DNA of 64,000 nt from Clostridia bacterium (GTDB lineage: Bacteria > Bacillota > Peptococcia > DRI-13 > UBA5745): positions 1 to 64,000 of the forward strand of contig JAHDMJ010000007.1 of the NCBI GenBank assembly GCA_018436095.1, written 5' to 3'. Numbering within the stretch: the first letter of the stretch is position 1; each line of letters opens with the position of its first letter. Of this stretch, positions 24,924-28,351 are shown piece by piece. The notes beneath the pieces are model-generated. The model saw only the letters and a list, made by a program, of their open reading frames with translations, was not told the DNA's origin and did not search any database. The position numbers and the translations under genes were made by a program.

Positions 24924-26276
24924 TCATACCCCCAGTATTTTGAGGGAAATCGAAAAATAGACAATCAAGGACACTGCATCAACGATAGTGGTAATTAACG
25001 GTGAAGCCATAATCGCCGGATCCGCCTTGCACAGCTTGGCCACAATAGGCAGCACGCCGCCGATGGTCTTGGCCAAAGCTACCGTCAATACAAGGCTGAC
25101 GGAGACAATAATGTAAACCATGGGTTCACCGGGATAAGTGATCATCAGCCGGATGCAATTAACTAAGGCTAAAGCTGTACCTACCAACAAGCTGACCCGC
25201 AGCTCTTTCCAAAACACCCGGCCCATATCCTTGCCTTCAATCTCATCCAAGGCCATGCCGCGGATGACCATGGTGGCGCTCTGGGAGCCGGCATTACCGC
25301 CGGTACCCGTCAGCATGGGGATAAAGGTGACCAAAATAGGCATAAACTGGATGAGATTCTGATAGTGGCCCAATACGCTGCCTGTGATCATGGCGGAAAT
25401 CATCAGTACCAGAAGCCAAAGAATACGGTTTTTCGCCAACTCCCAGACGCCGGTTTTCAGATAAGGCCGCTGGGAAGGCAGCATAGCCGCCATTCTTTCG
25501 AAGTCCTCGGTGTTTTCTTCCTGGATAACGTCCATAACGTCGTCAATGGTGATAATGCCCACCAGGCGGTTTTCCTGGTCTACCACCGGCAGAGAGAGGA
25601 AATCGTATCTGCCGATAATTCTGGCCGCTTCTTCCCGGTCGTCGTAGGTATGGACAAAAATCACGTCGTCGTCCATAATATCCCCGATTAGCGTGTCCAA
25701 ATCCGCCAAAAATAGACGGCGTACGGTAATTACTCCTTCCAGACGCCGATTGGCGTCAGTGACATAACAGGTATAAACCGTTTCGCTATCCAGGCCCACT
25801 TGGCGAATGCGCTCAAAGGCCTGATTTACCGTCATTTCCTTTTTAAGGTGAACGAACTCCGCCGTCATAATGCTGCCGGCTGAAGACTCGGGATAATTTA
25901 AAAACTGATTGATCAAGCGCCTGGTCTCCGGTGAAGTATGCTGAAGCAGTTTTTTCACCACATTGGCCGGCAGCTCTTCCAGCACGTCTACGGCGTCGTC
26001 CACATAAAGCTCGTCGATGATGGCCGAGGCTTCTTTGTCCGTAATGGCCGTAATCAACTGTTCCTGGGTTTCCTGAGCTAAATAGGAAAATAGCTCCGCC
26101 GCAAATTCTTTATGCAATGTCCGAAAAACCACCGGCAACTGCTTGGGCGGCAGGCTTTCCAAGAACTCGGCGGCATCGGCCTTGTTCAGCTCGGACAGCT
26201 TCTCCTTGAGGGCGCGGTATTCCTTATTTGCCGCCAGTGCCGTCAATTCCTCAAACAACTCTTTTTCCATTTCCAT
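24924..26276 (-). CDS. mgtE: Magnesium transporter MgtE
   Basis: A 450-residue Mg2+ channel-type transporter. The N-terminal superhelical domain (about 1-130, EFLESLPPKQLPVVF) and a pair of CBS domains (about 135-260, IMTAEFVHLKKEMTVNQAF) form the cytosolic Mg2+ sensor. A plug helix and five membrane segments follow, with the pore signature GTGGNAGSQSAT. GGGGGG lies seven bases before the ATG. A short reading frame from 26322 overlaps this start in another frame. Confidence 0.97.
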   Translation of the reverse strand: MEMEKELFEELTALAANKEYRALKEKLSELNKADAAEFLESLPPKQLPVVFRTLHKEFAAELFSYLAQETQEQLITAITDKEASAIIDELYVDDAVDVLEELPANVVKKLLQHTSPETRRLINQFLNYPESSAGSIMTAEFVHLKKEMTVNQAFERIRQVGLDSETVYTCYVTDANRRLEGVITVRRLFLADLDTLIGDIMDDDVIFVHTYDDREEAARIIGRYDFLSLPVVDQENRLVGIITIDDVMDVIQEENTEDFERMAAMLPSQRPYLKTGVWELAKNRILWLLVLMISAMITGSVLGHYQNLIQFMPILVTFIPMLTGTGGNAGSQSATMVIRGMALDEIEGKDMGRVFWKELRVSLLVGTALALVNCIRLMITYPGEPMVYIIVSVSLVLTVALAKTIGGVLPIVAKLCKADPAIMASPLITTIVDAVSLIVYFSISLKILGV

Positions 26277-26322
26277 AACGGCACCCCCCTATAATCTCGG
26301 TCCTATTTTTCTTTTTTGCCAT
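26251..26322 (-). CDS. Possible short upstream ORF overlapping mgtE start
   Basis: A 23-codon frame beginning MAKKKNRTEIIGG, with GGGAGG eight bases before its ATG. It overlaps the first 26 bases of mgtE out of frame. It could couple or reduce mgtE translation. The peptide is basic and resembles nothing I know. Low confidence that it is a real gene. Confidence 0.3.
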   Translation of the reverse strand: MAKKKNRTEIIGGCRYGNGKRVV

Positions 26323-26417
26323 TTTTATGGCCTCCCTATTCAAAATCAGGAGCATAAAAACAGACATAACCGCAAAAAGCAGATGGCAAACGACTTTGGT
26401 ACCAAAGCAAATCCGGT

Positions 26418-26449
26418 GCAGAACAAATCTGCCGCAGAACGAATCTGCC
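26418..26449. repeat. Tandem 16-bp palindromic repeat in the mgtE leader
   Basis: GCAGAACAAATCTGCC and GCAGAACGAATCTGCC stand head to tail. Each is a GCAGA/TCTGC dyad, so together they can form two small or one larger hairpin in the leader RNA. Confidence 0.6.
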
Positions 26450-26552
26450 GGAACCAAAGCATCAGCAAACATCTGCATTGCGGTCCGAATCATACGAATC
26501 AGTCAAGCAAAATTAAGCTTTGCTTATCTGAGCCGGGTGCTGGTTAAATCAG

Positions 26553-26657
26553 CTATGCCGTTATCTTTTGGGAAGAAAAAACAACGGCCATAGCAAACAT
26601 TTGCCTGCACGGGTGATCATCGGCGTCCGCTTTTATACATCTGTCGCTTGGGTCCAC
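26553..26657 (-). CDS. Small ORF in the mgtE leader (34 aa)
   Basis: A GTG start lies seven bases after AAAGGAGGG, one of the strongest ribosome sites in the window, about 60 bp past a good promoter. The 34-residue product (VDPSDRCIKADADDHPCRQM...) has two Cys and no membrane segment. It might be a leader peptide or a small protein; function unknown. The promoter and ribosome site are seen; expression is inferred. Confidence 0.4.
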   Translation of the reverse strand: MDPSDRCIKADADDHPCRQMFAMAVVFSSQKITA

Positions 26658-26721
26658 TGTTTTTCCCTCCTTTGTGTATTTTATGGAAAAATCTCGCCGG
26701 GAGTACGTCGTCCCATCTAGA

Positions 26722-26750
26722 ATTATAGCGAAAAAATACCCTGGTGACAA
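26722..26750 (-). promoter_or_regulatory. Sigma-A promoter for the mgtE transcript
   Basis: Minus strand TTGTCA (26745-26750), 17-bp spacer, TATAAT (26722-26727). Transcription would begin near 26715, giving a leader of about 440 bases before mgtE. I see no M-box in that leader. Confidence 0.7.
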
Positions 26751-26854: not shown

Positions 26855-27119
26855 ATAAATACGGCTATGAGGAAAACGAGTACTTATTTCGGAAAGCACA
26901 GAGAGAAGATGGTTGGTGCGAATCTTCGAGTAAGAAATAAGGAAGCCATTTCTGAGCCATGGACCCAAAGGCATTTTTGCCCAGTAGGCTTCATCGTGAC
27001 CGCACGTTACAGCGGTAAGGCATGTTTGTGCCGGATGAGTGCGGAAAGCCTGGCTTTCCGAAATTAGGTGGTACCGCGGAGATTTTCGCCCTAAGTCAAA
27101 AGACTTAGGGCGTTTTTTA
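26855..27119 (+). promoter_or_regulatory. T-box leader, alanine-specific (specifier GCC)
   Basis: Stem I base GGCT (26863) pairs with AGCC (about 26957). An AGTA S-turn strand (26878-26881) faces GAAGCCA, in which GCC (26945-26947) stands at the specifier position, an Ala codon. The stem above is CTTATTTC/GAAATAAG, and the apical part holds GGTTGGTGCGAATC. The conserved T-box TGGTACCGCG is at 27069-27078; its TGGT would pair with ACCA, as expected for a tRNA with discriminator A such as tRNA-Ala. A terminator follows (CGCCCTAAGTC-AAAA-GACTTAGGGCG then six T, 27087-27118). Uncharged tRNA-Ala should favour the antiterminator and turn on the aminotransferase. Confidence 0.92.
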
Positions 27120-27139: not shown

Positions 27140-28351
27140 ATGCTAATCGAAAAAGCAAAAAAAATGGAGCGAGTCCATTACGATATCCGGGGACCCATCT
27201 CTGAAGAAGCAGAGCGCATGGAAGAGCAAGGCATAGAGATTGTTAAGCTCCATACCGGCAATCCCGGTTTATTCGGCTTTGAACCGCCGAAATATGTGGT
27301 AGAGGATTTAATGAACAACCTGCAGCTTTCTTATGCTTACTCCACTTCCAAGGGCCTGCGGGAAGCCCGGGAGGCCATCGTCAGCTATTCTGCCAAAAAG
27401 GGTATTACAGGCATTGAACCGGAAGACGTGTACACCGGCAACGGCGTCAGCGAATTAATCATGATGTCAATGCAGGCTTTGCTCAATCCGGGAGACGAGG
27501 TTTTGATTCCTACGCCGGATTATCCCCTTTGGTCGGCGGCTGTTACTCTGACCGGCGGCAAGGTGGTCCATTACCTCTGCGATGAAAAAGCGGATTGGAT
27601 GCCGGACATGCAAGATATGCGGAAAAAAATCACCAGCCGTACCAAAGCCTTGGTTATTATCAACCCCAACAACCCCACCGGCGCTCTTTATTCCAACGAC
27701 TTGTTGAAAGAGATGCTGGAACTGGCCAGACAGCATAACCTGCTGGTGCTTTCCGACGAAATTTACGACCGACTGGTGATGGACGGCTTGGAGCATACCT
27801 CCACCGCCTCCCTGGCCCCGGATCTGCCGATGATTACTTACAACGGCCTGTCCAAATCCCATCAGATCTGCGGCTTCCGCTGCGGCTGGATGGTGGTAAG
27901 CGGCGACAGGACTCAGACTGCCGGCTACCGGGAGGGCCTGACGGTGATGGCCTCCCTCCGCCTTTGTTCCAACGTGTTATCTCAAGCTGTAATCAAATCT
28001 GCTCTTGAGGATCCGGCTTGCTCAGACCATCTGCTTTTACCCGGCGGCCGCCTTTACGAACAGCGGGAATGCGCTTACCGGATGCTCAACGCCATCCCCG
28101 GCGTCAGCGCCGTCAAGCCCAAAGCTGCCTTATATATTTTCCCCAAACTGGACCGGCAAAAGTTCAACCTTAAAGACGATAAGAAATTGGTTTTGGATTT
28201 TCTCAAGGCCAAGCATGTGTTGATTACTGAAGGAGCGGCCTATAACTGGACTGAACCCGATCATTTCAGGCTGACTTACCTGCCCAAAGTGGAGGAATTA
28301 GCCGACGTCATCAACCGCTTGGAAGATTTCCTTAGGGATTACAGACAATGA
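27140..28351 (+). CDS. Alanine-type aminotransferase (AlaA/AlaT-like, PLP-dependent)
   Basis: A 403-residue class I aminotransferase. The PLP lysine is in NGLSKSHQICGFRCGW, closely matching the NGLSK..GFR.GW pattern of AlaA-type alanine transaminases. Also present are INPNNPTGALY, LSDEIYDRLV and the final substrate-binding Arg in HFRLTYLP. It probably makes alanine from pyruvate with glutamate as donor. The Ala-specific T-box upstream supports this: the gene is turned on when tRNA-Ala is uncharged. GAAAGGAG lies ten bases before the ATG. Confidence 0.9.
   Translation: MLIEKAKKMERVHYDIRGPISEEAERMEEQGIEIVKLHTGNPGLFGFEPPKYVVEDLMNNLQLSYAYSTSKGLREAREAIVSYSAKKGITGIEPEDVYTGNGVSELIMMSMQALLNPGDEVLIPTPDYPLWSAAVTLTGGKVVHYLCDEKADWMPDMQDMRKKITSRTKALVIINPNNPTGALYSNDLLKEMLELARQHNLLVLSDEIYDRLVMDGLEHTSTASLAPDLPMITYNGLSKSHQICGFRCGWMVVSGDRTQTAGYREGLTVMASLRLCSNVLSQAVIKSALEDPACSDHLLLPGGRLYEQRECAYRMLNAIPGVSAVKPKAALYIFPKLDRQKFNLKDDKKLVLDFLKAKHVLITEGAAYNWTEPDHFRLTYLPKVEELADVINRLEDFLRDYRQ

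Follow-up and report, generated by a model that had tools for sequence, protein, structure and literature searches.

A putative ribosome-dependent attenuator of mgtE in a Clostridia bacterium and an apparently undescribed family of leader peptides upstream of Mg2+ transporter genes

Ribosome-based sensing of Mg2+ through leader peptides has been described for enterobacteria, as far as the available portions of two reports extend (PMC8092293, PMC11282234). In the mgtC-mgtB region of Salmonella the leader mgtQ comprises 8 codons, lies inside the operon before mgtB and is described as involving ribosome destabilisation and a ribosome positioned on region 1 (PMC8092293). MgtL precedes the E. coli Mg2+ importer gene mgtA, has an acidic second residue and an EPDP stretch, and is linked to Rho-dependent termination and early drop-off of the ribosome (PMC11282234). 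The M-box (ykoK, RF00380) controls the same kinds of gene. A further riboswitch candidate, the mgtE motif (SRC-65-1), is a structured mgtE leader containing the ribosome site; the part of the report available places it only in Thioalkalivibrio and names no leader ORF (PMC11109978). Lastly, a mycobacterial M-box is associated with the uORF rv1805A, a conserved small ORF in a Mg2+-linked leader with anti-SD/anti-anti-SD pairing, the uORF being, in the available portion of that study, itself the regulated gene and specific to mycobacteria (PMC12810186).

The window analysed here, a 64,000-nucleotide stretch of contig JAHDMJ010000007.1 from a Clostridia bacterium, carries an mgtE gene behind a long leader. 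By analogy with mgtQ and MgtL, this leader is best read as attenuating a Mg2+ transporter gene at the level of translation, with a new Clostridia peptide family set apart by its features. Shared with mgtQ are a short ORF behind an AGGAGG-type site, an acidic residue at position 2, a Mg2+ transporter gene downstream and, as a prediction here, translational control by competing stem-loops in which the ribosome site of the transporter gene is either sequestered or free. The Clostridia leaders differ from mgtQ in being approximately 20–40 codons long, in preceding mgtE or mgtA and in mostly containing an Arg-Ser (CGA-AGT) motif, and from both mgtQ and MgtL in that opening is predicted for a ribosome located in the second half of the leader rather than for an early or absent one. 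Compared by features with MgtL, occlusion of the ribosome site or intrinsic termination would here take the place of Rho-dependent termination and early drop-off, and the mgtA leader of the window genome has a stretch (EPTP) resembling EPDP. The family mostly occurs without an M-box, and its members are unlike rv1805A in not being the regulated gene. Codons 2–17 encode a mixture of Gly, Ser, Asp and Arg with no run of a single amino acid of the kind expected in a trp-type attenuator.

The features of the locus are collected in Table 1. The initial annotation had described a good promoter about 440 bp upstream of mgtE, a strong ribosome site with a 34-codon ORF, tandem GCAGA/TCTGC palindromes and a second short ORF overlapping the mgtE start, and each of these was recovered, the predicted transcription start lying approximately 440 nt before the ATG at 26276. 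The whole mgtE leader has a predicted fold of -161.9 kcal/mol (z -6.3 against shuffles), and the end of ORF1 (ATAACGGCA, 26564-26556) is complementary to the mgtE start (TGCCGTTAT, 26283-26275). The annotation had also seen no M-box, in agreement with an Rfam search of the leader in which RF00380 gave no match at gathering or permissive thresholds and no other credible Rfam element was found; a terminator scan of the leader detected no intrinsic terminator. An M-box or other Rfam element was consequently dropped as a candidate, the sole strong match nearby being a T-box leader (RF00230, 126 bits) at 26858-27096 on the forward strand. This T-box is divergent from the mgtE promoter and precedes an ORF at 27140-28351, presumably encoding an aminotransferase-like protein.

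Table 1. Features of the mgtE locus and its leader in the window
Feature	Position	Strand	Remarks
mgtE, Mg2+ channel/transporter, 450 aa	24924..26276	-	MgtE_N, CBS and MgtE domains
ORF2, MAKKKNRTEIIGGCRYGNGKRVV	26251..26322	-	ATG start, 23 codons, frame different from mgtE; otherwise present in G004 alone
Possible hairpin TTTTTATGCTCC...GGGAGGCCATAAAAATGG over ORF2 ribosome site	26319..26360	-	Sequence comparison
Tandem 15-nt GCAGA..TCTGC palindromes, 16-bp period, in structured stretch between ORF1 and mgtE	26418..26448	-	Direct repeat; present in G004
ORF1 leader peptide, MDPSDRCIKADADDHPCRQMFAMAVVFSSQKITA	26553..26657	-	GTG start, 34 codons and TAG; member of M-[DE]...R-[SC] family
Potential hairpin in 3' part of ORF1, GCTATGGCCGTTG / AACGGCATAGC	26556..26594	-	Predicted fold and inverted repeat; kept in G004
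ORF1 Shine-Dalgarno, AAAGGAGGG, directly 5' of GTG	26665..26673	-	Retained in G004; G001 and G002 have a similar site
Promoter-like TTGTCA-17-TATAAT for mgtE transcript	26722..26750	-	11/12 matches; G004 is identical over TATAAT and its flanks

Comparison with close relatives separated the two short ORFs. Within the genus, one genome (G004) has the complete leader, at 83% identity, with ORF2 as well as both palindrome copies (26418-26432 and 26434-26448 in the window) with one loop change. The mgtE leaders of G001 and G002 gave no full-length alignment to the window leader, and the palindromes were not seen in them by eye. Both contain an ORF behind TAAGGAGG whose peptides, MDPGDIPLKADMDDDLCVRM... 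and MDPGSSDLCIKTDADDDPCIR..., are clearly like the MDPSDRCIKADADDHPCR of the window, though the R-S pair is absent. In G005, a member of the family, mgtE follows closely behind a TATAAT and no leader ORF of the ORF1 kind was detected. The equivalent of the ORF2 ribosome site belongs to mgtE itself in G001, G002 and G005, and the counterpart of the possible hairpin at 26319..26360 covers the mgtE ribosome site itself in G001 and G002. Since G004 is the one relative that retains the palindromes and ORF2, these do not make up the conserved core; together with the start of the sister mgtE genes at the ORF2 ribosome site, this led to their rejection as the core element. They look lineage-specific, with nothing in the comparison to support a special role. 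In the window, where ORF2 occupies that ribosome site, the mgtE start lies 46 nt downstream, in another frame and behind a GGGGGG run, an arrangement suggesting either that the two ORFs are translationally coupled or that the mgtE start has shifted recently.

The window MgtE is approximately 50-63% identical to MgtE proteins of the order of Flavonifractor An100 (G060), which we take to be Oscillospirales, compared with approximately 35% for most of its own order (44% for one genus), a distribution that suggests horizontal transfer. Such an MgtE is present in 206 of 394 genomes sampled from the former order. Upstream regions from part of these loci (80 stretches), together with further loci, gave a collection of 155, of which 148 were used after removal of six as distant or duplicate and one for its short upstream. 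An SD-led short ORF beginning M-D or M-E was present in 72 of the 148, and 59 of these 72 have CGA within codons 2-17. The same scan gave 4 such ORFs, all 4 with CGA, on the reverse strand, 5 and 3 respectively in 144 far-upstream regions, and means of 6.9 and 1.5 in Markov sequences, so that the ORF1 class occurs far above chance. No M-[DE] leader was detected in the other 76 upstream regions, and some leaders lacking this start (MNVPRSND, MRITLVLEDPIPPRSS, MRTKNFDDPLPSRSRS) were left out of the counts.

The consensus of these leaders is MDAGSS..PRS with the rare codons CGA-AGT in frame, or more generally M-[D/E], a Gly/Ser/Asp-rich part and then usually Pro/Gly-Arg-Ser encoded with CGA-AGT. 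Representative sequences include MDAGSSSGANPKGRSR, MDAGSSTTGTVPRSRQ, MDLCGRSTQLDSDIHLW and MDIYDRSAQNDDDVPLW, of which MDLCGRSTQLDSDIHLW and MDIYDRSAQNDDDVPLW come closest to the window peptide, which reads M-D-P-S-D-R-C followed by an Asp-rich stretch and lacks CGA-AGT. All three mgtE genes of Flavonifractor An100 (L009, L095, L099) have an M-D leader ORF; the Flavonifractor-type leaders L009, L102-L104 and L095 share MDLCGRST, and a GCTTCCTCGCTGTA-like stretch lies downstream of the leader and before the mgtE site in L009 and L102-L104. Pfam and NCBIfam contained no family for four leader peptides of the ORF1 type, and a literature search by title and abstract, whose coverage excluded most subscription papers and bioRxiv, found no published leader peptide of mgtE in Clostridia. 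ORF1 is thus a member of a large and apparently undescribed leader-peptide family in Clostridia.

Several sequence patterns point to a translated leader ORF. Strong-SD short ORFs number 76 and come from 70 of the 148 regions; 57 of them have Asp and two have Glu as the second residue, compared with Asp in 3 of 17 control strong-SD ORFs. Within the first 17 codons AGT occurs 104, 3 and 4 times in the three frames, the in-frame count given first, and CGAAGY 46, 2 and 0 times; the distance between start codon and CGAAGT differs among leaders, but the frame is kept. Of 62 CGAAGT sites, 38 share the frame of the closest SD-led start, 17 have no assigned start and seven lie in another frame; for five of these seven (L102, L095, L009, L120, L160) the script had chosen a start nearer than the M-D start of the ORF, an explanation that does not apply to the remaining two (L190, L198). 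Arg-Ser is encoded by CGA-AGT in 43 of 55 cases, although both codons are rare in 31 mgtE genes, where CGA accounts for 3.7% of Arg and AGT for 9.6% of Ser. Third positions carry most of the variation in codons 2-4 of 38 MDAG/MDSG leaders. Judged by these sequence patterns, the leader ORF is conserved as a coding sequence, and as a strong-SD short coding ORF upstream of a Mg2+ transporter gene with an acidic N-terminus (MDPSD..KADADDHP in the window) it resembles MgtL and mgtQ.

The commonest leader start, expressed as SD plus ATG-GAY-GCN-GGN-ARY, was searched for in all 394 whole genomes and gave 25 matches, with none for the reversed pattern. By local tblastn, 24 of the 25 have mgtE downstream. 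At the remaining match (L223 of G211) an M-box precedes the leader, and a second leader containing CGA AGT, MESGSKRSPEPDGRHRS, follows it, and then a P-type ATPase gene; the best named match of this ATPase is the Mg2+-translocating family, the fragment scoring below the full-length cut-off of the model. The order in G211 (L223 / L236) is an M-box, two successive leader ORFs (MDAGSRRKYSLNDG..., MESGSKRSPEPDGRHRS...) and the gene for the P-type Mg2+ ATPase. An M-[DE] leader ORF was also present upstream of 16 of 30 mgtA-type ATPase genes (for example METGGKCSPNSDGRHRS, MDGKPRSRTDK and MEGKPRSPLGS), though a few of these ORFs, L248 and L256 among them, look unlike the family. Within the order of the window organism, mgtA was found in 2 of 25 genomes, once in the window genome and once in G004. 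The former gene (L267, contig C12) has the leader MDGNPRSLFYEPTPQS, which begins MDGNPRSLFYEPTPQSKTGNQ... (MDGNPRS, with CGA AGT), the latter (L266) has MDGNPQCIFYDPKPQSETSN... (MDGNPQC...), and in both an intrinsic terminator, GCCGTCTGTTGGGACGGCATTTTTTT, lies 23 nt after the leader stop. Of 13 fetched mgtE loci with an M-box, six (L114, L117, L118, L123, L125, L129) have it in tandem with a leader ORF, whereas no leader ORF was detected at the other 7; the tandem also occurs at 3 of 16 scanned ATPase loci. Judged from the genes downstream, the leader family is dedicated to Mg2+ transport, preceding transporter genes of two unrelated types, mgtE and mgtA.

Leader structures were modelled thermodynamically, without kinetics and by rule, including the choice of the mgtE start. 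For the window the start so chosen was the ATG at 26270, six bases inside the gene; with 26276 the ribosome-free cost of opening the mgtE site is 9.1 kcal/mol. On average over 68 leaders, related members of which are not independent, the two halves of the ORF are predicted to pair with each other, as are the pre-mgtE stretch and the ribosome site of mgtE, and when a ribosome masks the second half the first half pairs instead with the pre-mgtE stretch. Modelled ribosomes change the predicted cost of opening the site by about +2 kcal/mol at codons 4-15 and about -1.5 kcal/mol at codons 21-29. Natural leaders differed weakly from dinucleotide-shuffled ones (8.98 versus 9.84, p 0.035) and strongly from synonymous recodings not matched for composition (p 1.2e-8). 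With composition-matched recoding the ribosome-free costs were 8.84 (natural) and 10.50 (recoded; 48/68, p 2.9e-6), and with a late ribosome they were 7.34 and 9.66 kcal/mol (57/67 loci, p 1.4e-10), while an early ribosome at codons 5-10 produced no difference (11.16 and 11.17). When averaged in 26 blastn single-linkage clusters the late effect remained (8.07 versus 9.57, 20/26, p 2.2e-4), as did the early-late swing (p 0.0067). The four leaders of the window genus form one cluster, and in all of them opening is easier when the ribosome is late than when it is early, the cost falling from 11.2 to 7.4 in the window, 14.7 to 4.9 in G001, 11.6 to 7.0 in G002 and 11.3 to 9.2 in G004; the recoded window leader costs 9.3 early and 9.2 late. 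Recodings that opened the site more than the natural sequence numbered 2 of 19 for the window, 4 of 19 for G004, one for G001 and none for G002. These models indicate leader codons tuned so that a late ribosome would open the mgtE ribosome site, and the predicted alternative structures depend on ribosome position in a manner that distinguishes natural from recoded leaders.

The mgtA leaders were modelled in the same way. In the window genome the leader start, CCAATGGACGGCAA, reads as complementary to the first arm of the terminator, and a ribosome at codons 26-36 is predicted to abolish the terminator, while an absent or early ribosome leaves it in place. The ribosome-free leader is predicted to form the terminator at 0.99 in the window genome and at 0.74 in G004, where its formation is reduced by a ribosome around codons 7-11 as well.

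We therefore regard the window leader as probably a translational attenuator of the Mg2+ importer gene mgtE that responds to ribosome position. A ribosome would start at the strong ORF1 site and make a short peptide of the conserved family. Four segments would form mutually exclusive pairings, namely the ORF1 site with the first half of ORF1 (segment 1), the second half of ORF1 (segment 2), the pre-mgtE cover (segment 3) and the mgtE ribosome site (segment 4). With no ribosome, segment 1 would pair with 2 and segment 3 with 4, keeping mgtE mostly closed; an early ribosome in ORF1 would mask segment 1 and leave segment 4 closed; and a ribosome dwelling in the second half would mask segment 2, allowing segment 1 to pair with 3 and mgtE to open. 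The mgtA gene of the same genome, behind a leader of the same type (MDGNPRS...), would have its intrinsic terminator controlled by the same logic. We infer Mg2+ as the signal, as well as the late pause, the fold in vivo and the effect on expression, such that low Mg2+ would cause a late pause in the leader and turn the importers on. The suggestion in the initial annotation that Mg2+-linked control operates through translation of the leader is in this form upheld for ORF1, on account of its coding conservation, its association with two transporter families, the tandems with M-boxes and the tuned codons, and finds nothing in its favour in the palindromes and ORF2.

The most serious alternative, initially favoured and demoted by the ribosome-position profiles, is early abortion as in the available accounts of MgtL and mgtQ, whereby an acidic position 2 and an Asp/Pro-rich N-terminus would destabilise the ribosome in low Mg2+ and the ribosome-free RNA would express mgtE. 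The high frequency of Asp or Glu at residue 2 (59/76), the D/P-rich stretches KADADDHP in the window and EPTP in the mgtA leader, and the more open state of ribosome-free RNA than of RNA with a ribosome at codons 5-10 (8.86 versus 11.16) all fit such a mechanism. We nevertheless consider it rather unlikely, as the ribosome-free mgtA leaders still form the predicted terminator, which is lost once a ribosome sits in the last third (and in G004 is also weakened from some middle positions), the late state shows the strongest codon tuning, and acidic residues beyond position 2 are few in most Oscillospirales leaders.

A conserved small ORF beside a transporter gene could also encode a small protein of the MgtR/MgtU kind that acts in trans on the transporter and not on translation. 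Conservation of the leader peptides is confined to the first half with differing C-termini, the same N-terminal motif stands before two unrelated transporters, and codons are tuned for pairing with a downstream ribosome site, all of which make this improbable. Least probable of all is an undescribed Mg2+ or ligand riboswitch with an incidental ORF, since, despite the very stable leader fold and strong nucleotide conservation such as that of CGAAGT, CGAAGY and AGT hold the start-codon frame at varying spacing, third codon positions are the most variable and Rfam gave no match in the window leader.

Returning to the reading preferred here, in which a late ribosome opens mgtE, a more general and distinctly tentative proposal is that a single dedicated leader-peptide code (M-[D/E]...Arg-Ser written as CGA-AGU) constitutes a ribosome-based Mg2+ sensor of Clostridia for the two unrelated importers MgtE and MgtA, sometimes placed behind an M-box, in which a late pause would open the importer gene. 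A large Clostridia family associated with two transporter families and with M-boxes would suggest that Mg2+ sensing by the ribosome is general or has arisen more than once, and the conserved peptide with its codon pair would offer a direct handle on how Mg2+ changes elongation.
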